Positions 1,052-62,583 of a stretch of 64,000 nucleotides of DNA are shown in pieces. This stretch comes from Platanthera guangdongensis. Lineage: Eukaryota > Streptophyta > Magnoliopsida > Asparagales > Orchidaceae. The stretch lies in the NCBI GenBank assembly GCA_039583875.1, contig CM077151.1, forward strand, positions 24,918,208-24,982,207, in the 5' to 3' direction. The position numbers and the translations under genes are program-made. Under the pieces are notes generated by a model that was not told the origin of the DNA, searched no databases, and was given only the letters and a program-made list of their open reading frames with translations. Position 1 is the stretch's first letter. Each line of letters starts with the position of its first letter.

Positions 1052-3558
1052 CTAAATGGCGCGTGTTCCCGGGTCCAGGTTGAGGTGGTGGCAAGCCACA
1101 TCCGCGTCAACCCCCGGCATCTCCGCGACGTTCCAAGCGAAGATGTCCACGTTCTTCTGGATGCACTCCAGCATCCTGCCTTGGTCCTCCGGGGTCAGCC
1201 CCCCGCTGACGCGGATTTTCTCCATCCTGCCTCCCCGGGTGAGCACCTCCAGCTCCACCACTTCCTCTGCAGCCTCCAGCCTGGACTGCTTCCCCCATCC
1301 TTCGGCATCCCCTTCCTCCGGAACGGGGATCTCTACCTCCATCTCTTTTCCCCCGGCCCTCACTTCGGCCACCTCCTCCAGGTCTCCCCCTGCCGCCTCC
1401 TCCTCTGCGCAATTCTTCCTTTCCAGCTCCTCTCCTGCTCCCTGCCCTGCCTCCTCCATCCCGCGTCCCATCTCTTCGGCTCCCTCTATCCAAGAGATGG
1501 TGTTCACCGCAGTGACATAGCACTCCCGCGCCACCTTGGGGTCCCCTCTGACCCTGATCTGAATCCCCTCGGTGTTGAACTTTAAGCACTGATGGAAAGA
1601 CGAGGGGACGTAGCGGAAGGCGCTGATAAGGGGCCTCCCGAAGATGGCGCTGTAGCTGCTGGGGCATCCACAATGACGAACCTGCAGTTCCTGTACTGCC
1701 CCCCCCAGGGTAACATGGAGGCCAACTCCTCCCTCTACTTCCTTCCTTTCTCCTGAAAACCCGAACAAGAGTCCATCTGAGGCCAGCACGCTCTTTGCCT
1801 CCGCTTTCATCGCGTCAAACGCCTTTTTGAAGACGACGTTGACGGAGCTTCCGTTGTCCACGAGGATCCGGGAGACAGTGAAATTCTCGATGGCTGCCTT
1901 GATGACCAGCGCATCGCAAAATGGGTCCTCGTGGTCTGGCATATCGCTCCTGGAGAAAGTGATCCTCTCCTCTGGGGGTGGGGTTTGGGATGTGGAGGCG
2001 ACGCTTCGCCGATACATGGTGTGGAGGCTTGCCTTGCGGGAAGCCTCGACCCCTACTCCCCCGTGGATCACTCCGATCCCCCCTCGGGTTCCAACATCCA
2101 CCCGGTCTTCGCACCGATCCTCCTCCGCCCGAGGCAGGACCTCCTCAATCCTCACTTCTTGCCGACCCCCCTGCTGCTGCTGTTGTTCCCTATTCCCTCT
2201 CATCTCGAGGAATTCCGGGCAGGTGGCTGTGGCGTGCCCCTCTTCCTGATGGAAATCGCAATAGGGCAACTCCACCCTGACCTCTCTTCTCCTCCTCATA
2301 ATTCCCCTCCTTGCTCCCAAGGCTATGGCCATGACCTCCTCTTGATCGGGGAGCCGGGGCCTCTGGCCCTGCCTCCAGCCCGGAGGGTGGAACTGATCTT
2401 GTCTCCCCTGGTAGTGACCCCTTCCGTAGTACCCTCTCTGTGGCCCCTGCCCCTGCCACTCAGGTCTCCAGCCCAGCCGACGGTCGGGCTCCTGATGCCC
2501 CCACCTCGGCTGCTGCTGCCACTGGAGCTGCCTTTGCTCCCTCTGCCTAGGCTCCCCTCTTCTCTCCTCCTGTCCCTTCCCTCCTCTTGACTCCTCCTCT
2601 TCCTCCGTGGCCCACCTGACCAGCTTCCTTGCAAACTCTGGGTTCGACGCCTCCCCGTCGACCTCTGTCGCCGCCCTCTCCATCAACTCCTCGTAGGAGA
2701 GGGGAGGAACTCTCTTCAGCTCCATTCGGAAGAAACCCTGCTGCAGGCCCAGGGTAAAGGCCATCATCAGACTATGGCCCGACATCTCCTGGACCTGAGT
2801 AACTTCCTCCTGAAATCGGTCCACATAGCTCCCCAACGTCTCGTTCACCCCCTGCTTAATGTGGAACAAAGACTCAGACTCCTTCTTCCTCTTCTTCGAG
2901 GTAGTGAACCTCAGCATGAACCCTCAGCGCAGGTCCTCGAAGCAGTAGATGGAGCTGGCCGGTAGCTGGTGGAACCATTCCCTTGCCTTTTCCCGGAGGG
3001 TGATGGCGAAGAGTCGGCATTTGAATCCGTCCGACATCTGACGGATGGAGACCACATCCTCGAACCATTGGACATGCTGGACCGGGTCTCCATTCCCGGT
3101 GTAGTAGGACATCTCGGGTTCTCTGAACCCATCTGGAACTGGAGCTGAGGAGACCAGCTCACTGAAAGGATTGCCTCCTCCCACCGGGCGAGCCGGCGAG
3201 TCTCGCGAACCCAGCTCGCCGAACCGGCTTCGTCCTGCCGAGCCGAGGAAGAGCTCGCGCCCGGGGAGCTCGCACCCCCGTCCTCCCTCGACCACCTCCT
3301 TCCCAGCTCGCATGCCGGGAGCGTCCTCGCCCAAAGAGGGGGCGGCCGCGATCTGGGCTGCCGGGGTCGAGCACTCGGCCCGCGTGCCGCGTGCGAATTT
3401 GACGAGGCCCAACACCTCATTCCTGAAGTCTTCCAACATCCCCACCGTTGCGAGAGGCGGGGGGGGGGGGGGGGGGGGGAGTTCTGCCCGTCAGACCCCT
3501 GCCCTCCGGTCATTGAACCTGCTGAAGCTTTTCTGTACTGACCACTGTCCACGCTCAT
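1052..3558 (-). pseudogene. gag-protease, downstream tandem copy (copy B)
   Basis: Starts at the ATG at 3558, 10 nt after the LTR fragment end, and runs to the TAG at 1052. The N-terminal gag holds a retrotransposon gag core (KAREWFHQLPASSIYCFEDL) and ends in a TGA near 2920. The same frame continues through the second half of gag, an R/Q/G-rich stretch with a weak Cys/His motif (YCDFHQEEGHATATC), and the aspartic protease (ILVDNGSSVNVVF). A run of 21 G at 3459-3479, coding proline, puts the first about 33 residues out of frame with the rest. In copy A the run is 19 G and the frame stays open. Confidence 0.85.
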
Positions 3559-3565
3559 CGCACCA

Positions 3566-3692
3566 AAATGTTGAAACCGATTCCTCGATCTCCTGTGGAG
3601 TTCGCCCTTGGGGAAGGGGTGGTGTCGCGCCTACGTCACTCCTGCAAGCAAAACAACAAAGAAGACAAGGTGACACAGACCCAAGGGCTCGG
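3566..3692 (-). repeat. Internal LTR 3'-end fragment
   Basis: Near-identical to 5662-5785, the last about 125 bp of the 5' LTR, and followed by the same primer-binding sequence and gag ATG. It sits between the two gag copies as part of the tandem unit, so it is not an independent LTR insertion. Confidence 0.85.
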
Positions 3693-5651
3693 AAAGACGA
3701 GGGGACGTAGCGGAAGGCGCTGATAAGGGGCCTCCCGAAGATGGCGCTGTAGCTGCTGGGGCATCCACAATGACGAACCTGCAGTTCATGTACTGCCCCC
3801 CCCAGGGTAACATGGAGGCCAACTCCTCCCTCTACTTCCTTCCTTTCTCCTGAAAACCCGAACAAGAGTCCATCTGAGGCCAGCACGCTCTTTGCCTCCG
3901 CTTTCATCGCGTCAAACGCCTTTTTGAAGACGACGTTGACGGAGCTTCCGTTGTCCACGAGGATCCGGGAGACAGTGAAATTCTCAATGGCTGCCTTGAT
4001 GACCAGCGCATCGCAAAATGGGTCCTCGTGGTCTGGCATATCGCTCCTGGAGAAAGTGATCCTCTCCTCTGGAGGTGGGGTTTGGGATGTGGAGGCGACG
4101 CTTCGCCGATACATGGTGTGGAGGCTTGCCTTGCGGGAAGCCTCGACCCCTACTCCCCCGTGGATCACTCCGATCCCCCCTCGGGTTCCAACATCCACCC
4201 GTCTTCGCACCGATCCTCCTCCGCCCGAGGCAGGACCTCCTCAATCCTCACTTCTTGCCGACCCCCCTGCTGCTGCTGTTGTTCTCTATTCCCTCTCATC
4301 TCGAGGAATTCCGGGCAGGTGGCTGTGGCGTGCCCCTCTTCCTGATGGAAATCGCAATAGGGCAACTCCACCCTGACCTCTCTTCTCCTCCTCATAATTC
4401 CCCTCCTTGCTCCCAAGGCTATGGCCATGGCCTCCTCTTGATCGGGGAGCCGGGCCTCTGACCCTGCCTCCAGCCCGGAGGGTGGAACTGATCTTGTCTC
4501 CCCTGGTAGTGACCCCTTCCGTAGTACCCTCTCTGTGGCCCCTGCCCCTGCCACTCAGGTCTCCAGCCCAGCCGACGGTCGGGCTCCTGATGCCCCCACC
4601 TCGGCTGCTGCTGCCACTGGAGCTGCCTTTGCTCCCTCTGCCTAGGCTCCCCTCTTCTCTCCTCCTGTCCCTTCCCTCCTCTTGACTCCTCCTCTTCCTC
4701 CGTGGCCCACCTGACCAGCTTCCTTGCAAACTCTGGGTTCGACGCCTCCCCGTCGACCTCTGTCGCCGCCCTCTCCATCAACTCCTCGTAGGAGAGGGGA
4801 GGAACTCTCTTCAGCTCCATTCGGAAGAAACCCTGCTGCAGGCCCAGGGTAAAGGCCATCATCAGACTATGGCCCGACATCTCCTGGACCTGAGTAACTT
4901 CCTCCTGAAATCGGTCCACATAGCTCCCCAACGTCTCGTTCACCCCCTGCTTAATGTGGAACAAAGACTCAGACTCCTTCTTCCTCTTCTTCGAGGTAGT
5001 GAACCTCAGCATGAACCCTCAGCGCAGGTCCTCGAAGCAGTAGATGGAGCTGGCCGGTAGCTGGTGGAACCATTCCCTTGCCTTTTCCCGGAGGGTGATG
5101 GCGAAGAGTCGGCATTTGAATCCGTCCGACATCTGACGGATGGAGACCACATCCTCGAACCATTGGACATGCTGGACCGGGTCTCCCTTCCCGGTGTAGT
5201 AGGACATCTCGGGTTCTCTGAACCCATCTGGAACTGGAGCTGAGGAGACCAGCTCACTGAAAGGATTGCCTCCTCCCACCGGGCGAGCCGGCGAGTCTCG
5301 CGAACCCAGCTCGCCGAACCGGCTTCGTCCTGCCGAGCCGAGGAAGAGCTCGCGCCCGGGGAGCTCGCACCCCCGTCCTCCCTCGGCCACCTCCTTCCCA
5401 GCTCGCATGCCGGGAGCGTCCTCGCCCAAAGAGGGGTCGGCCGCGATCTGGGCTGCCGGGGTCGAGCACTCGGCCCGCGTGCCGCGTGCGAATTTGACGA
5501 GGCCCAACACCTCATTCCTGAAGTCTTCCAACATCCCCACCGTTGCGAGAGGCGGGGGGGGGGGGGGGGGGGAGTTCTGCCCGTCAGACCCCTGCCCTCC
5601 TGTCATTGAACCTGCTGAAGCTTTTCTGTACTGACCACTGTCCACGCTCAT
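3693..5651 (-). pseudogene. gag-protease, upstream tandem copy (copy A)
   Basis: Second copy of the gag-protease block, next to the true 5' LTR. The first gag part is open for 210 codons from 5651 through the polyproline stretch to the TGA near 5018 that it shares with copy B. The shared stop therefore predates the duplication. Against copy B there are single-base losses near 4201 and 4453, which break the frame. The copy ends inside the protease-RT linker (GRPLISAFRYVPSSF) and is followed on the minus strand by LTR sequence instead of RT. Confidence 0.85.
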
Positions 5652-5661
5652 CGCACCAAAA

Positions 5662-6341
5662 TGTTGAAACCGATTCCTCGATCTCCTGTGGAGTTCGCCC
5701 TTGGGGAAGGGGTGGTGTCGCGCCTACGTCACTCCTGCAAGCAAAACAACAAAGAAGACAAGGTGACACGGACCCAAGGGCTCGGCAGGGAGGTCCCTCC
5801 ACAAACCCGAAAGATCTCAGAGCGCTTCCCCTCCTTAGCTAGAAGCCGAGCTAAGGTACCCTCAGAAAGCACTTGAAGATTGGAGCAGGAGAGCACTGAA
5901 AAAACCTCTCTGGGGTACCCCTTGGGTCCTATTTATAGTTTTTGAGATCTGGACTGCCAATAACCAAAAGAACTGACCTGAAATTACCAGAAAACCCTTG
6001 GATGGGTCTGCCGTCTGCCAACAGCCAAACTCCGCTGTTTTGAAGGGCTATGGGCAGACCAGCGGGGGCAAAACAGTAAAAAGTACCTCATACATCCAGG
6101 CGAGCTGGGGAGATTTGACCACCTCGGCATGTTCTGCTCGCCTACCGCTGCCGAGCTCCACTGCGAGGACGCGAGTTGCGGCTCGCTCAGCGAATGCCGA
6201 GCTCTGGGTCGCCGAACGTCGATCTCTGGTCGACGGATGCCGAGCTCGGGCTCGCCGCCTCCACTGCCGAGCTCGCCTATTGTCCTCCGCCCGATCTGCC
6301 TAGACCCTGGTGACCTTGCTCGCCGGACACGGGGTTGTACA
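5662..6341 (-). repeat. 5' LTR of the Tat-like element (680 bp)
   Basis: Read on the minus strand the LTR starts TGTACAACCCC and ends GGTTTCAACA, so it has TG...CA termini. A promoter TATA box (CTATAAATAGG) lies near 5930-5940. The internal region begins with TTTTGGTGCGATGAGCG, the expected primer-binding-site position. The outer border at 6341/6342 is fixed by comparison with the uninterrupted copy near 61065. Related LTRs occur at 24587, 26176, 30100 and 40430. Confidence 0.85.
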
Positions 6342-7971
6342 GCTACCACTCACGCCTCCTCCCGTGATATCCCTGCTGCCACCGAAGAAATCAACACAAA
6401 GACCTCTGCCCCAGAAGAGATCAACGTTCCCTGCCTCCACCGAAGCCCTGCTTCCTTCTGAGACGCACGCGACCCACGACTCTCAGACTTCTTCTCCTTC
6501 AGGTATAACCCGATTTCCCTAATTCTAAACCGCAAGCCTCCAACGACTGCTCCCTCCTCGCTCCCATACGCCGCTATCACTCACGCCTCCTCCCGTGAAA
6601 TAGCTGCTGCCACCAAAGAAATCAACGGTCAGACCTCTGCCCTAGAAGACATTAACGTTCCCGCCTCCACCGAAGCCCTGCTTCCTTCTGGGACGCACGC
6701 GACGCACAACGCTCCAGCTTCTTCATTTTCATCTGAGATTTATCATAGATCTGAGATCCGTTTTCTATTTTCGTTTTCAGATCTGAGGTTCGTTTTCTAT
6801 TTTATTTCAGATCTGAGGCTCGTTCTCTATTTTTTACTTTCAGATCCGAGGTTTGTTTTCGATTTTCATTTTATATTTCATTTCCTGATTCCAGATCTGA
6901 CGTAAATAGATTTTCAATGTCGTTTTCTATTCCAGATCTACCATAATATTGCAAAAAATGTCATCTATAAGAAAATATATGCATTTAATATTCATTGAAA
7001 AAATAGATATAAGCCTAAATCCAATGGCTCTATCTTTTAAATTGAACAAAGGGAAGAAAAAAGGATGTGCTCATCACATCATAATATCAAGAAATTAGTC
7101 CAAAAGAATTAAAGTTTTGGTCATCATTCCACAAAAAAGAATGGCCCACTAATCTTTTTGCAGGAATCAATAGCAATTAAATAATATTTTATCACCAAAA
7201 AATAGCACAGATTTGATATGCAAGATCATTAACATTAGGAGTCAATGACTCCAGTGTGAAATGAAGCTCACATCCGTGGAACATACAACAATTTATTGGT
7301 TGGCTCATTGCCATTTATTATTAGAGGCGGTATTTTGGTTAGTAACAATACGACCATAACAACACCATAAATGCACGTATTAAAGGAACTACAAATTCTT
7401 TGCTTAACTGTTCTAAGAAGTTTGAAGTTAAATCTGGGTATTCATTATTTAAGGATATAGTATGATAATATAGGATAAATCAAGATTAAATTGTTTAGTT
7501 ATATAATTATATATTTTAAAAGATTAAATTGTTTAGTTAAATTCTTTTCCTGTTATACTGTAGTCATCATCGCTAAACCAGAAATTTTGGGATCGAGTGG
7601 TGGTTGTTTTTTTAAAATTTTAAATGATTTACTTTCCTCTATGAATGTGGTGAACTGACACATCCATGGGAATAAAAAAGATATTGGTATTTTATGATTT
7701 GATCATAGAAATAAAACCTGACATACTTATCTACTAAAAAAAAATTTCAGCATTTTATGATTCATCATGGCTTGAATAAAATCCTATCTATACACCATGA
7801 AGTATTTTTCAATATTTCATCCATTCAACATTTCACAATGAGTACATACACACGTACAAGTCCAAAAAAAGTGCATACATCCTGTTCATACTATAGTATT
7901 TACCTTCGACTTATACTACGCATATACATGAGTTTAGTACAAGTATACAAGTAACATAAGCCTCTACAAAA

Positions 7972-8024
7972 GTGTGTATCAACAAAAGTAGCTAAGTTGC
8001 GCCATCAACAAAAGTAGCTAGCAT
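7972..8024. repeat. 26-bp tandem repeat, two units (copy 1)
   Basis: Unit resembles GCGCCATCAACAAAAGTAGC. There are about two units here and about five in copy 2 (62781-62910), so the locus varies in copy number between paralogues. Confidence 0.75.
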
Positions 8025-8924
8025 CTTTATTTATCCAAGTCATATCACTAGCGCTGTCCAGTTTGTGATTTTCCTGTGCCTAAAAAATTAGATTTTGAAA
8101 CCATTAGTCTTTACCAACGACTAAGCGAGAACAAATTTTTTTATCCTGCTGTACATGCAAGACTAAAAAGATTACATGTAACAATATGCACAACATTATA
8201 ACAGATATAATCTGAGCCAGTAAAGGTAGTAAAGCGGTAATTTTATATCAGCATTCCTATGAAACAATATAGTACAGTGTAAGGACATATCAGTGTGCAT
8301 CTATATAATATAGTACGAGCTATCATGAACAGCTGTATATAACATTAAGGTAAGAGATCATTTGTTTCTATGAAATTTCATTAACTAGGAAATATTAAGG
8401 GCAATTGAATCTGTAATCTGTATACGTTCTCTTATTTCAGTCTTTAGGTCCGACCCTTTAGGGTCGTCAATGTCCAAAACAGTACGTGCAATACGCGTTT
8501 ATGCCTTTCGGCCGACTGATTTGACAATTCTTCTGTATCATTTCATTCATGTGCATGCAATATCAATTTGCCCTTAACATAACCTTGTGTCGACACGTTA
8601 ACATTTGGATAAACAGTACTTATTTATTTTATAATTCCCTCAAATTTTCTCTCCTGTTTGCCTTTTACCAAGGCCACACATATAAGTGAGCATTATTTTT
8701 TCAGTGATAAACATTGTATTCATGATGTGACAAGCCATATAAATCTCATTTCATATCCTTGAAAAGATGCAAATAAATAAATTACTTTAAATAAGAATAA
8801 ATTAAAAAGATAAGTTTCACCGTCACTTTTTCCTTCCCAGCATCACGCCCTACGTCATCGCCGTGTCTATCTTGGGATGCCATCCTTCGCAATACCTGTT
8901 TCAAAATCTTATCTTTAGGGGACA
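8000..8924 (-). pseudogene. Exon-like fragments of an unrecognised host gene, copy 1
   Basis: Three minus-strand stretches look like exons and are conserved in copy 2. (1) ATG at 8924, reading MSPKDKILKQVLRRM and ending at a GTGAAA donor near 8820. (2) About 8540-8430, after a GATACAG acceptor, reading VLDIDDPKGSDLKTEIRERI; in copy 1 this frame has a TAA where copy 2 has TGT. (3) About 8075-8000, after TTTTTTAG, reading AQENHKLDSASDMTW and then a stop. The phases between (1) and (2) do not join directly, so the model is incomplete and an exon may be missing. I do not recognise the family. The hAT element sits about 100 bp upstream of stretch (1). Confidence 0.35.
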
Positions 8925-9017
8925 TGTGTATCGAGGTTGCACCACATTAGAGTTACAGCGTTGACACTTTCAGGTTGACTAGATTTTTCTTTAAGATTTG
9001 TCGAAGGAGGAAACACT

Positions 9018-9025
9018 AATATGAG
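9018..9025. repeat. Target-site duplication, left (AATATGAG)
   Basis: Identical to 17047-17054. Copy 2 of the surrounding segment has a single AATATGAG at 63897-63904. An 8-bp duplication is the hallmark of hAT transposition. Confidence 0.95.
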
Positions 9026-9164
9026 CATTCTTGTCTCGGCGTCAAGGCGAACCAAGGCGAGCGCTGGGCGCCTTGACGCTTAGGCGTCATGGCGGACGCC
9101 TAGGTGACACTAAGGCGAGCAAGTCGCAAGGCGCCATTTTTTTTTTTTTAAAAAAAAGCAGCCT

Positions 9165-9550
9165 ATCGACTGCGGTTATTATAATAACCGCAGTCTATAC
9201 TATAGACTGCGGTTATTAAAATAACCGCAGTGTATAGTATACATTCTATATACTGCGGTTGTATAATACCCGCAGTGTATAGTATACATGCTATAGACTG
9301 CGGTTTTATAATAACCGCAGTCTATAGTACACATACTATCGACTGCGGTTGTTTAATAACCGCAGTATATGTTATATATACTGCGGTTAATAGAATAACC
9401 GCAGTATATATTTATTGACCATCGACTGCGGTTATTCTAATAACCGCAGTCGATAGTCATATATAGACAGCGGTTACAAAAATAACCGCAGTCTATAGTA
9501 TGCCTGCCAATCTTTAGACTGCGGTTATTATAATAACCGCAGTCTACAGC
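9165..9550. repeat. Subterminal array of palindromes, left end of hAT
   Basis: Nine consecutive imperfect-to-perfect palindromes of about 28 bp. Each has an ACTGCGGTT arm, a 9-10 bp AT-rich centre and an AACCGCAGT arm. They are separated by 10-20 bp AT-rich spacers such as TATAGTATACAT. The likely role is transposase binding, by analogy with subterminal repeats of other hAT elements. Cruciform formation is possible. Confidence 0.92.
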
Positions 9551-10088
9551 TCCTTTTTTTTTTAAAATAAATTGTTTACCAATTACAAACACAGCTGGAG
9601 ATTTTTTTGTTCTTCATAGCAGACTAGCAGTTAGCAGTTAGCAGTAAGCAACTAAGCATAGCAGTTAGCACTTAGCAACTAAGTATAGTTTCTGAATGAT
9701 CATATGACAAGAAGTAGGCAAGTAGCAACTAGCAACTAGCAAGCACAAATGTTCCAAGTTCCAAGTTCCAACTACCAAAATCATGTATTCTGTATTCATG
9801 AATCATGAATTCATGATATCTCAAATCCTCAATTCTCAAACATCAATACATTCATACAATCATACCTATGACCTATCTCAAATTCTCAATTCTCAAATAC
9901 CATGAAGCAGTAAGCATGTAACAGTAAGAAAAAACAGTGGCAATCATCTATCAATGGTCAAGACTCAAGAGTCAAGAGTCAAGACTCAAGACAAACTTCA
10001 GAGAAAGCAATAACAAAAAAGGGAACACAAAAATAGCATATTAGCATGAATAATATTTTTAACATTAACTTTAAATAATCATACAAGG
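9551..10088. other. hAT non-coding stretch with short direct repeats
   Basis: AT-rich sequence downstream of the transposase gene. It has runs of short direct repeats (AGCAGTTAGCA, CAACTAGCAACTAGC, TCAAGAGTCAAGAGTC). I see no gene. Confidence 0.6.
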
Positions 10089-12771
10089 TCAACTAGAATC
10101 ATCATCTAGTAAGTCGTCATTGACATTGCAGATGTTTGGTTGGATGGAGGTACTCGGCATTTGCCCATAATTATCATAAATATCTTCATCATCACTGGCA
10201 ACTACAAAATGATCTAAATCTTCATCCCCTTGAGCTATTAGTTCATTTATTTGAAAATTAGTTCCAACTCCACTTCGTAAATTTCGAGCCCCAGTTCCAA
10301 GAGCTCTCTCTACAGCATCCCATGTGAGATTATCATCATCAAAAACTAGAGCTTCCTCTGGTTTGTTCACCATCCACTCACTACTCCAGTCGAGCTCATC
10401 AAGCACCAAAGGATTGTAATTTCTTCCCTTTTCACGTCTGTCTTGGAATCGTGCTTGTAGACGCCGATTATATTGGATGTATACAAGATCACTAAGCCTT
10501 TGATGTTCCAATCTATTTCTTTTTTTTGTGTGAATCTGAATCAAGATAATTTCAAACTTATTGGTAAATTATTAAAATAAAAATATTAAAATTTTTATTG
10601 AATATTTGTATACTTAGATTACTTACAAACTCAAAAGTACTCCAATTGCGCTCACAACTAGAAGAAGAACAACATAAGCCAATTATGCGCAATGCTACCT
10701 TTGCAAGGTCAACATTTGATCCTCCATGTGCACCCCACCAGTCCACTATTCATTTAAGACAGATATAAATTGTTTGACATATAATTATATAAATAAATTA
10801 AGAAAAAATAAAAATGTAAACAATACTTACTTGGATTTAAGGTGGTTCGTTGCCTAATAGCCATAGGCTTTCCAAAACTATTTCGAGATGCTTTGTAGTT
10901 AGTACCTTGCTCGGCAATCTTGTCTTGCAATTCTTGATCGGGCACTAGTCTTGCAATAACATCATTGAAAGCATCTTGAAATTTCCAGGCATCATCATTA
11001 TTTTGTTCCTCATATTCAAAATATTTGCCTGAATTTAGAAACAAAGCCGCCCTATACAACTTTTGCTCCATTTGATTTGTCCATCTATTTTCAACAATCT
11101 CAATAATCTTTTTAAATAATCTTTCTTTGTTATCAAAATGTTGTTTGATCTTTTGTTTGGCTTCTTCCATTGCAGCATATACTTCAGGCATAGCCGGCCT
11201 TTCATCTCCATCTACTAATCGCAAAACTGCAATCAGTGGTTTTCCCCCTTTTAGGCAATCTCTTACTCCATTCCAAAAATTGGTTGAAAGTATTATTTCA
11301 ACAATCTGTTTTCCGGCTTCAGTTTTTGCCAAATTAGCGGCATTCCACGAGGGCGACACAAAGAATAATTTCAGCTTCTCCTCATGCTTAAGCACACTTT
11401 GTAGAGTAAGGAATGATGTTGCAAATCTAGTTACTGAATGCCTAACTAGATCACCGCCTATAGTAGTCCTTATTGCATCAAGTAAACGAGTGTGTCTGTA
11501 GATGAAATTTGTAATCATTCTTGCCTTTCTTATCACTGTTTTGTTCTGTTGTAGCTTGCCTATATCCTCTAGCATTAGATCAATGCAATGAGCTGCACAA
11601 GGAGTCCAGAATAATGTAGGTCTTTTTTCCATTAAAATTTTACCAGCTGCCTTGTAATTAGAAGCATTGTCAGTCACCACCTGCAGAGTGCAGACATTTG
11701 TAATTATTGAAAGCTGTAGAGTGTAGACTATTAAACTTGTATTTGAAAATTACTAAATTAATGAAACCAAAAAAATTACCTGAACAACACACTCTGCTCC
11801 TATCTCTCTAATCTTACTATCAAGCAAATCTGATAACATTGTGGCATCTTGAATATGACTGGATGCATCTACGGAACCCATAAAATAGGATCCTTCTGGA
11901 CAGTTGACTAGGAAATTGATCAAATGTCTCCCTCTCCTGTCTGTCCAACCATCTGACATAAGTGTGCAACCATATCTTCTCCAGTACGCTTGATAGTTTG
12001 TCTTCATCTCCATGACTTTATCTTTTGTATTTTTTAACAATGGGACTCTCAAATCATGATAACTAGGGCCTTTATAACCAGGCCCATACTGTCCAACTGC
12101 TTCAAGCATGACTTCAAAACTTCGTGCCTTTGCGGCATTGAATGGAATTCCACATTCATAGAACCAATCAGCAACATAACTATCAACTCTCTTTTTCTCT
12201 TCAGGTGTTCTAAAACATCTCTCGATAGTAGTTTGTGCAGGACCTTTTGCAAGTCTATCATCTACTACATCTTCAGGAGCACGCCTCACATGAGCATACA
12301 TAGGCCCCCTTTTTGTGGCAAGTGAATTACTTTCCTTTTTTTGGCACTTGTCCCAGAACTTGGGACAAATGACGTTTTAGCTGTAGATAATGTCGGGGAT
12401 ACATTTTGTGACCCCGTTGGTTCTCTTTCTTGGTCACTCTCATTGTCATCATCAACAGTCAGATGCACATTGTCCTTTTTTTTAGCATTTAAAGCTGAAT
12501 ACATCTCAGCTGCTATTTCAGAAGTAGTCTTCAAACACTTGGATACATCTCCATACCCGCCACATAAGTGTTACTTCAACCTTTTGATACCACCCTTTAT
12601 CAATCTACCACACAAATTACATTTAACTGTATTTTTATCTTCTAGGTTGGGCCAATGACCATACTTCCAACCAGGATCATTTGACTTTGCTTTTCGTTTA
12701 GGATCCGTTTTTGGATCAAGGTCATTGCTACCAATGGATGGAGCAAGAGTGTTGGTGTTTTGGTCTTCCAT
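10089..12771 (-). pseudogene. hAT transposase (BED finger, DUF659, hAT dimerisation), lightly broken
   Basis: Catalyses excision and insertion of the element. Four exons fit GT-AG rules: 12771-11780, 11680-10831, 10745-10627 and 10535-10089, with introns of 99, 85 and 91 bp. Exon 1 starts with MEDQNTNTL and a BED zinc finger (CNLCG, then HLC), followed by the DUF659 region (CTLMSDGWTDRRGRHLINF) with the first catalytic Asp. Exon 2 begins VVTDNASNYKAAGK with the second Asp and continues to CAAHCIDLMLEDIG. Exons 3-4 form the dimerisation domain (WWGAHGG, CERNWSTFEF, HTKKRNRL). Breaks: a TAA between the zinc-finger Cys and His pairs near 12568, and a one-base frameshift at 12305-12340, in or near short A or G runs. 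Splice sites and the rest are intact, so inactivation looks recent. Confidence 0.9.
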
Positions 12772-13033
12772 CTTTCACAAACAGGACCTATAGATTGCAG
12801 AGTTAGGTCGGGACAATGAAATAAATAACAGCTAAAGAAATCATCAGTCATCACTCATCAGTCATCACAATGAACAATTTAAAGAACTCTAAAAGACATG
12901 CTCATTTAGAAATTAGAAGAGTCAACAAGACCATAAGATCATCAGTTCATCACTATAGACAAGACACTACATGATAAATCTAGCAATACAAAAATACATT
13001 TGTCATGTACTCATGTGTCAATTAAATCATGAT

Positions 13034-16016
13034 TCATGAAACACAATAAGTGATTATATAATGACAAATCATATTTCTAATATTATCTATTTTCTCCTGC
13101 GAAAATTGTGTCACTCCATGATAGATCTGCAATAAAACAAAAATGGTTAAAATCAATTCAACATAATTATTACCAATCTACATGCACTAGACAGTAACGT
13201 CACATACCTTTATCAATGATGACATTGGCCTAGTTTTAAGAGCATCAACTATATCAATCATGTAGCACATGATATAATAGCCACATTGAATACTATCTGG
13301 TTGTTTTGGGCACTACACAGTAACATAAATAAAAAATTGGTAAGTATTTTAATTTTTAATTACAAAGGTTTAAATTACAATACATACTCATATATGCTAT
13401 ACATCTAAAACTTACCGGAATCAACTTTGTAAGTTTTATTTTTTTAAAACTGGTACGCTGCTCTTTTGCTAAATCTTTTAATGCTCTTCATAAAATAAAA
13501 AAAGAATAAGTTTATAGCAAAATGTAAACAACTAGGAAAGTAAGTAAATAACACATTAATAAACTTACTTTGTAATGACATTCTTAATATCATCACGAAT
13601 GTCATTATTTAAGGGATCAAGCCAATAAACTGTATAATTATTATAATCAATAATAGCCAACATCCAATGTTCCCTGTGAAACAAATGAAATAATTAATAA
13701 CTTAATTAGAATAAAAAATAGTAATAATCATTGATATTTGATACAAAGATTTTTCATACTTACAATCTATTATAGGACACAAATAATAAAGAATCTGATT
13801 GGAGTTGACTAAGCGTCCTAAGCCTGATTTTTAGATCTTCAACTCGTGTTTTTAAATGTTCTTTGGCATAGTCATCATTAATAGCAAAAATGGAATGTGG
13901 ATTATGAAAATATACACCAATATTGTATGTAAATTCCTTTAATTGTGAGTCTATGTACCTGCAAAAACATGTAAATTCAAAATCAATTTATATATTAATA
14001 AAAATTCTTACTTTTATAATATTTGATACTCAGTAGTCAGATGCACAATACTCACCCAATACATGCTAATATGATGTTAGCTCCAATCATTTTCATATTT
14101 AGAAAATCATACAACTCTGAATTTTCAAAGTACGTACATGTTGATTCAACACTCCCAAATACTGTTGAATCTAACATTAGAGATATTATTTTATCTTCAT
14201 TCTCCATCTTACTTATAAAACTGGGCAAGATATCAATGAATTCATTTGTAGCCTGTGGAAATAAAAGAATTAATATTGTGGAATGTGGACATCAATATTG
14301 AATTCATTGATTACATAAAAGTCAAAAAAAATATTATAAATTATAATACCGTGCAAGCTAATTGTTCATGTCTACTCTGACTACTCTCAGGTTCATGTGA
14401 CCTGGATTCGTACTCCGGCTGAGACTGAGAAACCAAAAAGTAACAAAAAATAATTAATTACCTACGCAACAAAAAGAGAAGACAACATTTCATAAAAGTA
14501 TAAATATTTAAACATAATAATATTCGTGCAACTGGAAGTGCGGCACTTGTTCCAGTTCTAGCACTAAACATGCGCATAAGCTCTTCAATTTGATTCTTCA
14601 TAGTGCTAATCTCGGCTTGTTGCGCTTCTTCTTTTTGGCTCCATAATTTTTGTTGCGCTTGTTCTCTTTGGATCCATAATTCTTGTTGCTCTTGTTCTTT
14701 TTGGATCCATAATTCTTGTTGCTGGCTCAATCTTTCTTGTACTATAGCTTCAACATCTTCAATACGAGCTATTGGTGTTGGTGTCCTATCACTCCGCCTA
14801 TCATTTTTGAAAAATCTTGTAATGGTGGAAAACTTGCCACCAGCTCTAACTCTGCCCGGATGTTCTTGGCCTAAAACAGATGCAAGGATGTCATTTCTTC
14901 CCTGTGACACTGTTTCAGCACTCCGAGACTCTTGGCTCGACAACTCGTCCTAAACAAAAGTAATAAATATTTGAAGTTGGAACAGAATTGCAGATAAGAA
15001 AATATACTTCTCAAGAAATATTACTATCGATAATTTACAAATGATGAAATGATTCATTTACACTTACCATTTTAGATGCCAATTCAGCTGCATCTTTACT
15101 AATGTATTCACCCGTCTTTCTTTTATGACCGGCTTTCCATAACTCCGCACGTGAAATTGGTGCAGCTTCACCTTGTTCAATCTTGACAAAAAAATGAAAA
15201 TAAATTATCATACAAATAATTAAGAAACCAAATTTTAAAATACAAAAAACGGAAGAGAAGTAGAGAGATAATACCATTCTTTTTTCTAATCCAGAATAAC
15301 CCATTCTGGAAGTAGTATGAAAGGCCTTTCGTGCTTTTGCTCTCTCAGTATTAACCTTACTTTTCTCCTACAAAAATAAATGTGTTAATACTTAATTTGG
15401 TTATAAGTTATAAAGTTAAAAAATGATATAAACATTGAATTTAATAAGAAGTTAAGAACACAACCATATATTCTGTAGTAGTGCGATGGTCGACAAAAAC
15501 TCTCCAGTCTTCGGCAGTAATAAAACTATATTTGACAGGAACATTGTATCGATGCTCCAAATCAACATTTTTTACATAATTGACAAAAAGTTTGGATTTC
15601 CAAGTCCTCCAACTTTCACCCATGCTTTTCATTAATGCCTTGTAATGACCATCAATATTATCAAAAAATATCTGAAAATAATAAAAAATATCACTTAAAA
15701 AGTAACTAAAACACCAAAGATATGTAATCACTAATCACTCATAAGTCATAACAAGGTTACGTACATTTAATTCTGCCCATATGTGATCTTTAATTTGTTT
15801 ATCAACATCCCTCCATGCAACATATGTAATTGGCACATAACACTTCACAAGAGATCCCATCAAACTCATCAATTTATTTGTTTCAGGACCGGGAATAATG
15901 CGGCCATCATCACGGAAAGAAATAATAAGCTTCCTCCCCTCTAGCCTAAGCTTATTCAGTTCATTCATTTTCGTGAAGCCTCTTGTTGACCTCGATGAAG
16001 CTCCCTTGTCCGACAT
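13034..16016 (-). CDS. Transposase_24-like / coiled-coil / Ulp1-like protease protein carried by the hAT element
   Basis: Twelve GT-AG exons: 16016-15765, 15671-15465, 15367-15275, 15181-15068, 14950-about 14465, about 14424-14350, 14252-14056, 13958-13764, 13673-13569, 13485-13416, 13312-13208 and 13126-13034. The start is MSDKGASSRSTRGFTKMN, with stop TGA at 13034. Exons 1-4 resemble the plant Ptta/En/Spm Transposase_24 family (VAWRDVDKQIKDHIWAELN, GESWRTWKSKLF, RAELWKAGHKRKTGEYI). Exon 5 is a Q/E-rich coiled coil of QQELWIQKEQ-type repeats. Exons 7-12 are a Ulp1/C48 cysteine protease fold: EHWMLAIIDYNN (catalytic His), VYWLDPL (Asp), IPCPKQPDSIQCGYY (Gln and Cys). All junctions keep frame except exon 5/6, where the obvious donor gives a shift; an alternative donor or a small indel is possible. 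The protein would be about 570-600 residues. A SUMO- or ubiquitin-like target is inference only. Confidence 0.75.
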
Positions 16017-16484
16017 TTTCCTGTAAAACCCTAAAAAAAACCTAAACCATACAAAAAACCTAAACAAAATTCATACAAAACCGCAATGATATTGAACAAC
16101 TAGTTATTAGTTAGTAGTTAGTAGTTACTACTTACTACCACACAATGTTTATACATGTATAAATGTATAAATGTATAAATGTTTAACAAGGTTCCTAAGG
16201 AGGTTTAGACATGTATAAATGTATAATAATAATAAACACACAATGCTTAGCAAAGAGCAAAGAGATCAAAAGTTCAAAAACCGAGAAAAGGTATTAAGAA
16301 ATAGTATACCTAAGTGAGAATATTAGTTTTGTCGAAGAAGAATCGTTCGAAGCAAAGGAGAGCAACAACTTGAACAAAATCGCCTTTAGGGTTTCTCGCA
16401 AAGCGCAGGGACTGTAAAAAGAAGAACCAAAAATACGGGGAAACAAAAGATTTTTACGGCTCACGGTTAAAAAAAGATAGAGAC
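16017..16484. other. hAT upstream non-coding region of the Ulp1-like gene
   Basis: AT-rich, with short direct repeats (TTAGTAGTTAGTAG and ATGTATAAATGTATAAATG near 16110-16220). It probably holds the minus-strand promoter and leader. No TATA box can be assigned with confidence. Confidence 0.45.
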
Positions 16485-16945
16485 GACTGCGGTTTCTATA
16501 TAAACCGCAGTCTATACTACATTCCACTGCGGTTATTATACAAACCGCAGTCTATTCTCTGGAAGGCATAGACTGCGGTTTGAAAATAACCGCAGTCTAT
16601 ATTCAATTCCACTGTGGTTATTATACAAACCGCAGTCTATTCTCTGGAAGGAATAGACTGCGGTTTGCAAATAACCGCAGTCGATATGAGAATGGACTGC
16701 GGTTTATACAACCGCAGTCTATTCCCTGGAAGGAATGGACTGCGGTTTGAAAAGAACCGTAGTCGGTGTGAGAATGGACTGCGGTTTATACAATACCCGC
16801 AGTTTATAGTAGCATAGACTGCGGTTTATATCACAACCGCAGTCTATTCGACACTACACTGCGGTTATTGTACAAACCGCAGTCCATTCTCGGTTTCATA
16901 CAATAGACTGCGGTTTATATATAAACCGCAGTCTATTCCCATATT
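16485..16945. repeat. Subterminal array of palindromes, right end of hAT
   Basis: About eleven palindromes of 25-28 bp with the same arms as the left array (ACTGCGGTT ... AACCGCAGT). The inner part and spacers differ (TCTGGAAGGAATAG recurs). Their presence at both ends but not in the middle supports one element with both genes inside. Confidence 0.92.
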
Positions 16946-17046
16946 TTTTGTAAAAAAAAAAGGCGCCAAACGCCTTGTTTACAATTGGGCGCCGTGACGC
17001 CTAGGCGACGCCTAGGCGACGCCTAGGCGACGCCATGACAAGAATG

Positions 17047-17054
17047 AATATGAG
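17047..17054. repeat. Target-site duplication, right (AATATGAG)
   Basis: Matches 9018-9025 exactly and precedes the same host sequence (AGTGTACA) that follows the single copy at 63897-63904. Confidence 0.95.
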
Positions 17055-18399: not shown

Positions 18400-18443
18400 A
18401 GCAGTCGTGCACGGGGGATCCCGTGCGGGCAACATTCGTCGTG

Positions 18444-18655
18444 AGTGCGATATTTGTCGAGGGGACGATATTTGGCTGAGGCGGCAACATTGGTCGTCGG
18501 TGCGACATTTGTCGAGGGGGCGACATTTGTCGTGGGGGCGTCATTTGTCGTGGGGTCGTCATTTGTCGTGGGGTCGTCATTTGTCGTGGGGGCGTCATTT
18601 GTCGTGGGGGCGTCATTAGTCGCGGGGGCGTCATTAGTCGCGGTGACGACATTCG
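18444..18655. repeat. 18-bp minisatellite, unit A
   Basis: About twelve units of the type GGGGGCGTCATTTGTCGT, the complement of the arrays at 20690 and 58748. Many units contain the palindrome CGACA-AA-TGTCG. Confidence 0.9.
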
Positions 18656-19107
18656 TTCTTAAAATCTACCGGCCGCCGAACAGGGTGGCGAAATCAGACT
18701 GAGTCATTTTTTTCGTCTGCGAGTTTGGTAGTCTTCGACCGCATCTATAAGAAGAGTTCTTAAAATATAAAAAGAAATGACTAAAAAGACCACCCAAGAT
18801 CAAGCCTAAACAAATGAAAAGGGGAGGAGAGCTCTTGGGTGGTCTTCGGCTGCATCTAGGCGGACTTCGCCCGCCTCAGCACGGGCTTCGCCCGTGCTCG
18901 ATGCGTCGCTGCGGGTTGCGGCCGCAACATATACATATGAGTACTCAAAATGACCGTAAAAAATATAAATCACGATATTAATTTTTATTTTGTTAAAAAC
19001 ATACGTTTTGACATACAAAACATAATTTCACTCCCTCTTCTCTAAATATAAGAAAAAATGACTAAAAAGACCAAAATAAATGAAAAGAAGAGTTGATTAT
19101 ATGAGGG

Positions 19108-19172
<65 letters not shown>

Positions 19173-19214
19173 AGCAGTCGTGCACGGGGGATCCCGTGCG
19201 GGCAACATTCGTCG

Positions 19215-19440
19215 TGAGTGCGATATTTGTCGAGGGTGCGATATTTGTCGAGGGGGCGATATTTGGCTGAGGCGGCAACATTGGTCGTCGGTGCGACATT
19301 TGTCGAGGGGGCGACATTTGTCGTGGATGCGACATTTGTCGTGGGGGCGTCATTTGTCGTGGGGTCGTCATTTGTCGTGGGGGCGTCATTTGTCGTGGGG
19401 GCGTCATTAGTCGCGGGGGCGTCATTAGTCGCGATGACGA
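19215..19440. repeat. 18-bp minisatellite, unit B
   Basis: Same array as unit A with one extra unit near 19235 and small internal changes, so copy number changed after the head-to-tail duplication. Confidence 0.9.
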
Positions 19441-19898
19441 CATTCGTTCTTAAAATCTACCGGCCGCCGAACAGGGTGGCGAAATCAGACTGAGTCATTT
19501 TTTTCGTCTGCGAGTTTGGTAGTCTTCGACCGCATCTATAAGAAGAGTTCTTAAAATATAAAAAGAAATGACTAAAAAGACCACCCAAGATCAAGCCTAA
19601 ACAAATGAAAAGGGGAGGAGAGCTCTTGGGTGGTCTTCGGCTGCATCTAGGCGGACTTCGCCCGCCTCAGCACGGGCTTCGCCCGTGCTCGATGCGTCGC
19701 TGCGGGTTGCGGCCGCAACATATACATATGAGTACTCAAAATGACCGTAAAAAATATAAATCACGATATTAATTTTTATTTTGTTTAAAACATACGTTTT
19801 GACATACAAAACATAATTTCACTCCCTCTTCTCTAAATATAAGAAAAAATGACTAAAAAGACCAAAATAAATGAAAAGAAGAGTTGATTATATGAGGG

Positions 19899-20469: not shown

Positions 20470-20898
20470 ATGCAGTAGCAGAAGCTTCCCACGACAATTG
20501 TCTCCCCCACGACAATTGTCTCCCCCACGACAATTATCGCCCCCAACACAATTGTCGCCCCCACGACCATTGTATCCCCCACGACAATTGGCGCCATCCA
20601 CGTTAATGGTTGCCCCCACGACAATTGTCGCCCCCACGACCATTGTATCCCCCACGACAAATTGCGCCATCCACGTCAATGGTTGGCCCCACGACAAATG
20701 ACGCCCACGACAAATGTCTCCCCCACGACAAATGTCGCCCCCACGACAAATGTCGCCACCATGACAAATGTCGCCCTCACAATAAATGTTGCCCTCACGA
20801 CAAATGTTGCCCTCACGACAAATGTTGCCCTCACGACAAATGTTGCCCTTACGACACATGTTGCTCATGTAGGGCCGGAGGCCCGTGCCTGCCACTTG
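20470..20898 (+). repeat. Compound minisatellite with terminal hairpin (Helitron-like 3' end)
   Basis: Two repeat types follow one another. 20485-20690 is based on CCCCCACGACAATTGTCG, with a longer unit containing GGCGCCATCCACGTTAATGG that occurs twice. 20690-20860 is based on CCCTCACGACAAATGTTG. Next come the hairpin GGGCCGGAGGCCC (20872-20884) and GTGCCTGCCACTTG ending at 20898, before a T. The layout matches the end of the 58144-59332 element. Confidence 0.75.
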
Positions 20899-21745: not shown

Positions 21746-21933
21746 AGACCCTGCCCGCTCCAAATGATATAACTGCGGGTCCAGCTGAGACTCCACGCCA
21801 TATTAAATGAACAAACTAAAGTTTTACTCAATGATTACCAAATAAAACTAAGAAACTACGCACAACAGAATGATACGCTGACGGAAGCTAAAGAGAATAA
21901 CTCGAAACTAGAATGCCCACATCACTAAATAGT

Positions 21934-22379
21934 GATGCGGCACAGGCGTCACACCTGTCCGCCACCCTGGAGTCCCACCAGGGAGCCCACCTGGAGTCAG
22001 CACCAGGCGGATTTCATCAGGGCCGCGGCCCATACCCCCCAACCTGCTCTTCGCCATAGAATCATCACCATGCGGCAGATTGTTGAGGTCGGGGCTCGAT
22101 CCCCTGACCTCCTAGATAAGAGGCCTTCACCAGCGCTCCCATCACCAACTGATCCGCGACTCAGTTGGTGATGTGAGCGCTGGTGAAGGCCTCTTATCTA
22201 GGAGGTCAGGGGATCAAGCCCCGGCCTTAACAATCTGCCGCATGATGGTGATTTCATGCCGGAGAGCTGGTTGGGGTGTACGGACTGCCGCCCTGCTGAA
22301 AGCCGCCTGGTGCTAACTCCAGGTGGGCCCCCTGGTGGGACTCCAGGGTGGCGGGCAGGTGTGACTCCTGAGTCGCATC
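21934..22379. repeat. 446-bp foldback made of two head-to-head tRNA-like arms
   Basis: The left arm (21934-22152) is the inverted complement of the right arm (22160-22379) at roughly 85-90% identity by eye, around the centre TCCGCGA. Read outward, each arm begins CTCAGTTGGTGATG (A-box-like), then a short hairpin with CCTCTTATCTAGGAGG, then GGGGATCAAGCCCC (B-box-like). It ends GGCAGGTGTGACTCC...GCATC. This looks like two tRNA-derived SINE copies in inverted orientation. It is not a tRNA gene, since no acceptor stem is seen. Confidence 0.8.
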
Positions 22380-23280
22380 ATAAAAGTGCAAATAGTTGCG
22401 GGGATGCACCCATCGACCCGTTGGAGAGCACCCTTTCCCCCACCCGTCGGTGGGGAAGGGCTTTCATGCAAACATGCTAAAATAAGGGCTTCACCTGCCC
22501 AAGAAGAGAAGCCGTTACCCTTGACGCGCGTTTCAGAGGCATGACTCGGTCACGGATGACCTTCGTAATGGCTTCGATGCCAGATCTCACAAGAGTTGGA
22601 TAGCCATCACGAGCAGTGTGCCGGTAAGAAATTTACTCTCTCCTTAGCATTGACCCCTAGTTTTGTTTTCTATGTTCAATGTCTTTATCTGCATATTTTG
22701 ATCGTTTGTGAGAACTTCTTCCTATAGGTGAAACTAAATTTCTTATTGCTTCCATATATGGAATGGTAAGCAGATGATGAACGATCTCTTAGGGCAAGTG
22801 CCCATTTCTGGGAAATCCAGGCTCGCATGGAAAAGTCCTCCACAATCCCAGAAAAAGAGAAGTATCGATCCCTATGACTATCTTCTATATGGAATTTGAA
22901 TCAATTGCTTCCCAGTATCGTCCAGTAGTAATAAGGAGAAAGAAGTTTAACCTAGTGTTTGCCTCGACGGAGTAAAAAGAAAGAGTGGAAGTTTAACCTA
23001 GTGCTGACCTGAAATCTCTTCCTCTCCTCGCTGGAGAACGGCTTCCCGCAGCCTTTGTCGCGACTCCTAGCCACAAAAACTGAGCAGAAAAAAAGATTTT
23101 GGTGGCCGCTACGAAAGGAATGACGGAGAGAAATAGAAGCGAGCCCTAGCTAGCTGCCTTTAATCGCAGGGCTCGGTGATAATTCCGGACGTCCGTAATC
23201 AAACCATCTTAAATTAAACATTCTAAGCATATTTTATTATATTTATTAATAGGCCAACAAATAACCGAATTGAACCGCTT
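22380..23280. other. No gene seen
   Basis: Mixed sequence. 22540-22625 reads open with a GTAAGAA at its end, like an exon and donor, but no family is recognised. Nothing firm can be supported. Confidence 0.4.
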
Positions 23281-37394: not shown

Positions 37395-37785
37395 CTATCC
37401 GCACCGCAGTTTTGACTATTTGCACTGCACTTTCTCCTAATTTTTCGTGTCTTTTGCAAATACGTATTGTACATGTATTTTTAGGAAAAGTGTTCAACAC
37501 GAAAGTTATAAATCTCGACGAGATCTATAACTTTCGTGTTGAACATTTTTTAAAAAAATGCATGTACAAGGCGTATTTCGGAAATATACTTAGATTTTGC
37601 GCCTTTTGGAAATACGTCTTGTACATGCATTTTAAGGAAAAGTGTTTAACACAAAAGTTGTAGATTTTGTTGAGATCTACAATTTTCGTATTGAAAACTT
37701 TTCCTAAAAATGCATGTACAAAATGTATTTTATAAAGACATGAAAAATTAGGAGAAAATGTGGTGCGAATAGCCAAAACAAGGCC
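37395..37785. mobile_element. Foldback MITE with two internal hairpins
   Basis: The ends are inverted: TTTTGACTATTTGCAC with CTCCTAATTTTTCGTG on the left, CATGAAAAATTAGGAG with GTGCGAATAGCCAAAAC on the right. Inside are two perfect-to-near palindromes of about 100 bp centred on CTCGACGAGATC and GTTGAGATC, with arms GTACATGCATTTTTAGGAAA and GTGTTCAACACGAAAG. The same architecture occurs at 59697-60114. Non-coding. Confidence 0.8.
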
Positions 37786-39064: not shown

Positions 39065-40430
39065 TTATTCCACCTCACCAGGGCGAGCTGAGGAGGCCAC
39101 TGAGCTCTCGCCTCCTCCCGGATTGTCTGGGACTTGGACTACTGACTCCTGTCGCCCACTACTCGTTGGATATGTGGTTGTACACTCAAAGCAGAAGATT
39201 GAGTTGGTCGATAACTGGTTGAACCACTCTTTCGCCTTCTCCATGAGGGTGATGACAAAAAGCTTGTATTTAAAGGCATCCGACATTTTCAGACTCGTCA
39301 TTGAAATGTCCATTATCAGATCTCTTATCCACTCTGCTTCTTCTCCAGCTGAAGCGAGAGAATAGAGTTCTGATTCTATAGAAGATAGTGCAATGCACGT
39401 CTGCCTCTTTGACTTCCAAGCTACTGTTGCTCCACCTAGGGTAAACACAAAAGCACTAGTGGATCTACTATCAACAATTTCTGAGCAACATGAGGCATCA
39501 TAATACCCCTCAAGCACGGGAGGATGTCTACTGTAACATAAAGCGTACTTCTCAGTATACTTTAAATATTTCATTAGTCTGTCTAAGACATCCCAGTGGT
39601 CCTTCCCAGGGTTACTCGTAAATCTACTTAACATGCCGATCGTAAAGGCTATGTCAGGTCTTGTGCAGGTTGTAGCATACATGAGAATGCCTATGAGTTT
39701 GGAGTAATCCAACTGTCTAATAGGTGAACCTTCATTCGGTTTCAGTCTATAGTTGTAGTTGTATGGAGTCTCAGTCTTTTTGCTACTAACGTAACCCCAC
39801 TTTTCTTGTAGATTTCTAACATAGTGACTCTGACTTATGGTAATACCATTTTCAGTGAAGTTCACTTCCATACCTAGGATGGTCTTCACCACTCCCAAGT
39901 CTGTCATGCTAAATTTAGCCGTCAAGGCAACTTTCACGTCTTACACCTCAGACTGATCAGTGCCCAGAATTAGTATGTCGTCAAAGTACAAGCATACAAT
40001 TACGACTTTATCTGAACTTGTTCTCACACACAAATATTTATCTGATAGACTAGATTTAAAACTCAAGTCTTTAACACAAGTTTCAAATTTCTCGTGCCAC
40101 AATTTCAGTGCTTGCTTCAATCCGTATATTGACTTAATCAACTTACAAACCTTGTTTTCTAGACCTTCTATGACAAACTCTTTAGGTTTGTGCATATAGA
40201 TCTCCTCAGTCAGATCTCCATTAAGAAATGCAGTCTTGACATCCATCTGATGGGCAACAAAATGTTCAATAGATGCTAACGCGAGAAGTATTCTAATTGT
40301 CGCAAAGTGACAAACAGGTGAGTATATATCAAAGTAGTTTATACCACTCACTTGAGTGTAGACCTTGACAATTATACATGCTTTGTATTTAGCGATACTC
40401 CAATCAGGATTAAGCTTCTTCTTGGCTTGA
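39065..40430 (-). pseudogene. Ty1/copia RT-RNase H fused to a gypsy gag fragment
   Basis: From 40430 down, the copia RT starts abruptly at KKKLNPDWSIAKYKA and continues with HQMDVKTAFLNGDLTEEIYM, the catalytic LYFDDILIL and, after an in-frame TAA at about 39938, RPDIAFTIGMLSRF and RNase H (ALSSIESELYSLA). At about 39307 the open frame passes without a break into gypsy gag (MSDAFKYKLFVIT, EKAKEWFNQL), homologous to 3000-3070 and 5095-5165. The copia RT start is joined in frame to LTR minisatellite. The upstream copia parts (integrase, protease, gag) are at 54499-56262, beyond the Tekay insertion. Confidence 0.85.
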
Positions 40431-62480: not shown

Positions 62481-62583
62481 ATGAGTTTTTCCTCCTATGT
62501 TGGTGAATTTGATATAACTATTAGATTGATTAAGAAGTGTATTGTTAAAATTGTAACTGTCCGTAGTCCGCCATAATCAACAA
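62481..62583. other. 103-bp indel between the paralogous copies
   Basis: Present in copy 2 between GGCTTGAAT and AAAATCCTATC, absent from copy 1 at about 7783. No inverted ends are obvious. Either an insertion here or a deletion in copy 1. Confidence 0.75.

Follow-up and report, generated by a model that had tools for sequence, protein, structure and literature searches.

Results

A hAT element with two genes and secure borders

The window described in this work, that is, the complete 64,000-nucleotide (64-kb) stretch of Platanthera guangdongensis contig CM077151.1 between positions 24,918,208 and 24,982,207, contains a transposon of the hAT superfamily that occupies positions 9026–17046 of the window (8021 bases; all positions are those of the window). 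The element encodes two proteins on the minus strand: gene 1 encodes a hAT transposase, and gene 2, located upstream of gene 1, encodes a protein with a Transposase_24 domain followed by a Peptidase_C48 (C48) domain. A prior reading of the letters of this DNA (the sequence-only reading) had described a hAT element with exact terminal inverted repeats (TIRs), an 8-bp target site duplication (TSD), and a Transposase_24 and C48 gene beside its transposase; the ends and the duplication are exactly as described (Table 1), and the gene content is borne out by the Pfam matches described below. Both genes are enclosed by two arrays of palindromes that the sequence-only reading does not mention.

Table 1. 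Positions of the features of the hAT element, of its target site, and of the related flank copy.
Feature	Position	Strand	Basis and details
Left TSD copy, 8 bp, AATATGAG	9018–9025	none	exact match to right copy
Left TIR, CATTCTTGTC	9026–9035	+	10/10 bases match right TIR
Left outer AGGCG/CGCCT repeats	9040–9135	none	7 of the 19 in the element; putative transposase (BED) sites
Left array, 9 palindromes ACTGCGGTT-N-AACCGCAGT	9169–9543	none	motif search; 37–51 bp start to start
Gene 1, hAT transposase (BED zinc finger, DUF659, Dimer_Tnp_hAT)	10089–12771	-	Pfam profile matches
Gene 2, Transposase_24 and Peptidase_C48; 12 exons, 640 amino acids, open frame	13034–16016	-	exon model and Pfam
Peptidase_C48 match, residues 503–593 (with H519, D536, Q579, C585)	13259–13807	-	PF02902; range from exon table
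33-bp tandem repeats coding Q/E/K-rich 11-residue repeats, gene 2	14616–14722	-	tandem repeat family D8
Transposase_24 match, residues 138–262, exon 2 to exon 5	14830–15512	-	PF03004; genomic range from exon table
Right array, 11 palindromes, same ACTGCGGTT/AACCGCAGT motif	16486–16932	none	motif search; 39–49 bp start to start
Right outer AGGCG/CGCCT repeats	16961–17030	none	motif count; 8 of the 19 in the element
Right TIR	17037–17046	-	exact inverse of left TIR
Right TSD copy, AATATGAG	17047–17054	none	exact match to left copy
Related flank copy without the element (empty site)	61065–64000	none	AATATGAG once, at 63897–63904

The element has the features that are expected for a hAT transposon: an 8-bp TSD, short TIRs, and a transposase with both a BED finger and the hAT C-terminal dimerization region. 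Plant hATs of the Ac/Tam3 type have these same four features, and their classical members contain one gene; the element differs from them by its second gene. Its ends and TSD are not those of a CACTA transposon, and no Transposase_21 domain was identified by Pfam in the proteins that were searched.

The borders of the element are established by a second copy of its flanks in the window. The left flank (6342–9025) is repeated directly at 61065–63904 in three main pieces with 94.4–97.6% identity; overall, this direct repeat is ∼2.7 kb in length with 94–98% identity, the copies are separated by 55 kb, and the second copy continues to the end of the window. The match passes through the single AATATGAG in the second copy and then resumes after the element, at position 17055, up to the end of the window; near this empty site, the joined flanks of the element are identical to the second copy at 221/226 bases on the left and at 76/78 bases on the right. 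Because the empty site equals the joined flanks, the borders are settled: the empty site is direct proof of one insertion with these ends, both borders are secure, and so is the anatomy of the element. The simplest interpretation is that the element inserted after the two flank copies had separated.

Gene 1 encodes a hAT transposase that is broken in this copy

The matches of gene 1 to the BED (PF02892, E = 7.8e-5, searched with X in place of an in-frame stop), DUF659 (PF04937, E = 2.3e-60), and Dimer_Tnp_hAT (PF05699, E = 1.3e-10) families are all above the Pfam cut-offs. The in-frame stop (12571–12573) is located in the BED finger, at a position where two relatives (P0006 and P0010) have a residue, and the frame changes near 12300–12320; gene 1 is broken in this copy. 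The three later introns are all GT-AG. The two spliced genes on one strand of the sequence-only reading are confirmed, with the correction that the transposase is not intact.

Gene 1 has numerous relatives, distributed over many plants; of the 7978 candidates that were scored, 2124 have E ≤ 0.001. Among the best 120 of the 2124 matches, the closest are encoded by Platanthera zijinensis, with P0004 87% identical over the 637 residues compared and with P0005 and P0003 94% identical over parts of their lengths; neither Transposase_24 nor Peptidase_C48 is present in the precomputed domains of these 120 relatives.

Gene 2 encodes a Transposase_24 and C48 protein

In the gene model, all 11 introns of gene 2 are GT-AG, and the reading frame contains one stop codon, the terminal one, whereas the other two frames are interrupted by 44 and 80 stops. 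The Transposase_24 (PF03004, E = 2.6e-15) and Peptidase_C48 (PF02902, E = 4e-6) profiles, that is, the two proposed from the letters, both match above the Pfam cut-offs; their order, Transposase_24 and then Peptidase_C48, is that of open reading frame 2 (ORF2) in some CACTA elements (vide infra). The Q-rich stretch that had been noticed between them is present and is coded by the 33-bp tandem repeats.

Among solved structures searched by sequence, the top match is yeast Ulp1 (1euv; E = 3.6e-5), and a chain annotated as conserved membrane protein (0.022) and SENP5 (0.2) match less well; when the C-terminal part of the protein is searched alone, weak matches to SENP7 and SENP2 are added. Residues H519, D536, Q579, and C585 align with the positions in Ulp1 1euv that we take to be catalytic (His, Asp, Gln, and Cys), so the catalytic positions that the sequence-only reading had placed in the C48 domain are occupied as it proposed. 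Two other matches were set aside: that of gene 2 to SirA was below the Pfam cut-off, and that of the Q-rich part to convicilin was weak (E = 0.3).

Homologous stretches in P. zijinensis gene models provide a comparison for the exon model. Those in P0003 and P0002 stop at the ends of model exons 3 and 7, respectively; the donor of exon 5 is uncertain, with P0001 running two residues beyond the model at this position and lacking the next residue. With its frame open, the gene-2 protein could still be made from this copy; the transposase would need to be supplied by another copy.

The same gene pair in Platanthera zijinensis gene models

A protein search with gene 2 identified three matches among 7997 scored candidates, all of them chimeric gene models from P. 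zijinensis; a search with the N-terminal part identified two matches among 2790 scored candidates, both included in the same three models. No CACTA or MULE Ulp1 protein was among the matches of either search. These are predicted gene models, not transcripts, and the comparison covered their exon sequence. P0001 begins with a RecA-type sequence, continues with gene-2 residues 223–374 (79% identical, aligned over these 152 residues in one frame), and finishes with the end of the transposase (77%). P0003 contains TIM22 sequence, gene-2 residues 144–185 (67%), and transposase residues 167–443 of the compared body (94%). P0002 contains other sequence and then gene-2 residues 388–452 (86%). In two of the three models (P0001 and P0003, on contigs of 201.7 and 217.9 Mb), gene-2 sequence is followed by transposase sequence, that is, the genes have the same order as in the element.

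As a side observation, the public P. zijinensis models that are named RecA-like (P0001) and TIM22-1 (P0003) contain sequence from this transposon family, as a result of either exonization or annotation error.

Subterminal arrays of palindromic half-sites

Inside each end of the element is an array of palindromes, each composed of two copies of a 9-bp half-site in inverted orientation; half-sites were selected with at most one mismatch per half. Most of the half-sites in the arrays (35/40) are exactly ACTGCGGTT, and the exact 9-mer does not occur outside the element in the 64-kb window. Matches with at most one mismatch occur 49 times in the window (40 in the arrays, one elsewhere in the element, and eight outside), compared with 8.9 expected and a maximum of 15 in 100 shuffles. 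One or more of four 10-base versions of the motif occur in 122 published papers; none of the matches listed is about transposons.

When the 40 half-sites are aligned, each of the nine core columns contains 1.7–2.0 bits of information and 13 of the 16 flanking columns contain <1 bit. In the twelve outer columns, just positions -4 (1.17 bits) and -3 (1.66 bits) exceed 1 bit, giving AT(A/C)GACTGCGGTT as the extended site; in the four inner columns, one reaches 1.07 bits. Selection at one mismatch could flatter the conservation of the core, so degraded half-sites were sought as a control. No half-sites with two mismatches were found in the arrays; those with three mismatches overlap known sites in a shifted register, with two stray exceptions, at 9154 and 9587. 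Since two-mismatch sites are absent and the gaps between palindrome units are 11–25 bases, no degraded unit was overlooked and none is missing.

The bases that flank the core discriminate between two uses of a palindrome, that is, as a pair of protein half-sites or as a hairpin. Relative to a null in which halves are taken from separate palindromes within the same array, the outer 4, 6, 8, and 12 bases are no more complementary within palindromes than between them (P = 0.22, 0.46, 0.33, and 0.67, respectively), and the inner bases pair less within palindromes than in the null (P of 0.98 or more). Because the flanks pair no better within than between palindromes, the pattern favors candidate paired protein sites over hairpins that are conserved for their fold.

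A second, different short repeat, AGGCG/CGCCT, is found next to the TIRs: the element contains 19 copies, of which 15 are within ∼110 bases of its two ends. The repeat is not specific to the element (96 copies in the whole window).

Relationship to known transposon systems

The architecture of gene 2 in itself is already known from the ORF2 of some CACTA elements (PMC8978399). In some Chenopodium CACTA elements, and in other plants identified by database searching, a coding sequence contains Transposase_24 and then Peptidase_C48; in the Jozin-type CACTA (En/Spm) elements this ORF2 (CDA Type 4) is located beside the transposase, as gene 2 is here (PMC8978399). The subterminal regions of CACTA elements extend over several hundred bases and contain direct and inverted repeats (PMC8978399, PMC2528002). 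Unlike the element described here, with its hAT transposase, CATTCTTGTC ends, and 8-bp TSD, CACTA elements have a Transposase_21/Tnp2 protein, CACTA ends, and a 3-bp TSD. In grape, CACTA and Mutator-like element (MULE) families carry ULP1 regions, and the passages that describe them name none for hAT (PMC2528002). Searches of a library of open-licence papers, which did not extend to Repbase Reports, identified no account of a hAT element with a Ulp1 or Transposase_24 gene.

The arrays have a counterpart in the soybean CACTA element Tgmt, in which 4 and 24 subterminal repeats are able to form 2 and 12 palindromes and are taken as the binding sites for a TNPA-like protein; in En/Spm, transposition requires TNPA, which recognizes the subterminal repeats (PMC2613891). 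Tgmt and the hAT element share palindrome-forming subterminal repeats at both ends, a pfam03004 domain (Ptta in Tgmt), and a presumed subterminal-binding protein; they differ in superfamily and motif, and the passages on Tgmt do not mention a C48 domain (PMC2613891).

The VANDAL elements, which are MULEs, provide a second comparison. In Arabidopsis, the target of VANC21 is a 9-base motif that is arrayed in non-coding DNA, and VANC induces loss of methylation; the VANC proteins contain tandem peptide motifs in their variable regions (PMC5735166). Gene 2 has tandem peptide repeats as well. A subset of VANC genes encodes a Ulp1 domain (PMC13317346). In plants, genes of the Ulp1 type are known from MULE as well as CACTA elements, and for MULEs the role of the protease domain is described as undefined (PMC13317346). 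VANDAL elements with VANC, Kaonashi elements with ULP genes, and the hAT element have in common an accessory protein (with a Ulp1 domain in some members); the arrayed 9-base motif is shared with the VANC21 system, and anti-silencing is a feature of VANC (PMC5735166, PMC13317346). Within the window, the short-motif arrays are concentrated in the non-coding DNA of the element, as expected for a VANC-like system, with an orientation that differs from that for VANC21. In contrast to the element, VANDAL and Kaonashi belong to the Mutator superfamily, lack TIRs, and have motifs in one orientation, and gene 2 contains Transposase_24 (PMC5735166, PMC13317346).

As an example of an accessory gene in a hAT, the fungal TET+ hAT7 elements encode a TET/JBP protein; in three hAT7 families this gene precedes the transposase and is in line with it, and TET/JBP genes are not confined to hAT elements but occur in other superfamilies as well and are transferred among them (PMC12730594). 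That accessory protein is a dioxygenase that acts on methylcytosine instead of a protease, the hosts are fungi, and the TSD is 7 bp (PMC12730594).

Discussion

A possible CACTA-type accessory system in a hAT transposon

The core of a hAT transposon (TIRs, 8-bp TSD, and transposase) encloses an open Transposase_24 and C48 gene and two subterminal arrays of inverted 9-bp half-site pairs. We give even chances to the reading that the element is a two-gene hAT transposon that runs an accessory system of the CACTA ORF2 type; among the points in its favor is the domain order in gene 2, which matches that in some CACTA ORF2s (PMC8978399). The hAT lineage most likely acquired gene 2 from CACTA-type elements or shares it with them. 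From the joint resemblance to the CACTA and VANDAL systems, we infer that the arrays and gene 2 are parts of a single system. The proposal in the sequence-only reading of a distinct lineage, in which the gene-2 protein would assist transposition or escape from silencing, is plausible and gains from the discovery of the two palindrome arrays; its observation is confirmed, and its interpretation is partly supported.

In the mechanism we propose, the gene-2 protein would multimerize via its Q-rich repeats, and its N-terminal part, with Transposase_24, would bind the 40 half-sites at both ends. Binding would pair the two ends of the element for the hAT transposase and/or keep the ends and the promoter from being silenced, which is the role of VANC in VANDAL elements and of TNPA in En/Spm. 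The C48 domain may then locally strip silencing factors, or the transposase, of SUMO or a comparable modifier; we hypothesize that removal of SUMO in this manner would lift silencing, and for the silencing part of this proposal there is precedent.

Several points weigh against this reading. Neither protein search (7997 and 2790 scored candidates) returned a full-length homologue of gene 2, so the case for descent from a CACTA ORF2 rests on the Pfam matches and published layouts. The match to C48 is weak (E = 4e-6), so the predicted protease could be inactive or could target another modifier. The motifs for VANC21 are in a single orientation instead of the inverted pairs in this hAT (PMC5735166). 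The arrays could also be sites for the hAT transposase itself, or they could have spread by duplication, without function. Finally, the four palindromes (of the 20) that were folded as single DNA strands all fold well (z = -6.7 to -11.6).

The alternative that survives best, although we judge it unlikely, is an ancient capture of a CACTA ORF2-type gene by a hAT lineage, in which it would now be a functionless passenger; the arrays then would be ordinary subterminal repeats that are bound by the hAT transposase. Plant hATs do possess subterminal sites for their transposases, and hATs can capture sequences. Also, the transposase is mostly better conserved between copies (77–94% in four P. zijinensis models) than are the stretches of gene 2 (67–86% in three). 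Against this alternative, gene 2 holds one open frame for 640 codons, compared with 44 and 80 stops in the others, and P0001 aligns with it in a single frame; in addition, the AGGCG/CGCCT repeats beside the TIRs, though common in the window, provide another candidate site for the transposase.

Considerably less probable is the suggestion that the structure of the arrays matters, as RNA (a source of small RNAs) or as DNA (fold-back), and not their use as protein sites; the four palindromes that fold well speak for it, but the bases beyond the conserved core pair no better within units than between them. We regard as very improbable that gene 2 belongs to an independent element of CACTA or MULE type nested within the hAT, even though its domain content is that of a CACTA ORF2 (PMC8978399). 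The sequence-only reading had named a nested element around gene 2 as a finding that would refute it, and the ends of such an element were sought: no exact inverted repeat of at least 10 bases was found between 12500–13040 and 16010–16490, in a search that covered exact repeats in these ranges and not diverged or more distant ends; just two 7-base pairs are accompanied by a 3-base duplication (mean of 0.61 and maximum of 3 in 200 shuffles); and CACTACAAG ends are absent from the window. Moreover, the palindrome arrays enclose both genes, and the two P. zijinensis models have the same gene order. That the hAT merely lies beside the exons of another element is scarcely credible, even in a window rich in retrotransposon sequence, given that both genes lie within borders defined by the TIRs, TSD, and empty site, the last of which refutes it for this copy, and that both genes occur together in two P. 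zijinensis models.

A bolder reading, which we advance tentatively and consider somewhat more likely to be wrong than right, is that the Transposase_24 and C48 protein with its palindromic arrays would be a complete module that is portable between transposon superfamilies in plants; the hAT would use an end-binding, anti-silencing system of the CACTA type with a SUMO protease as its effector. A Ulp1-type gene in a hAT with an array of CACTA-like candidate sites suggests an accessory system that is independent of the type of transposase, and that helper systems may pass between unrelated transposons, as TET/JBP genes do between superfamilies in fungi (PMC12730594). The element also provides a compact test system: one protein, one 9-bp half-site, and 20 palindromes.

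Other repeats in the window

The remainder of the window contains several additional repeats. A 4.7-kb direct repeat (41341–46013 and 49776–54491; 94% identity, 8.4 kb apart) is found near matches to retrotransposon gag, integrase, and SH3-like sequences, and a 2.1-kb tandem duplication (1594–3692 and 3691–5785; 99.3% identity) overlaps a retrotransposon gag region. Related repeats, mostly with an 18-bp period, occur at distant sites and in both orientations (18404–19530, 20501–20860, and 58722–59298); an array with a 19-bp period is located at 40386–40651. There are two long inverted repeats: one at 21933–22380, with 220-nt arms separated by 8 nt, and one with 366-nt arms 22 kb apart (37411–37776 with 59723–60088), in which the halves of each arm fold back on themselves.

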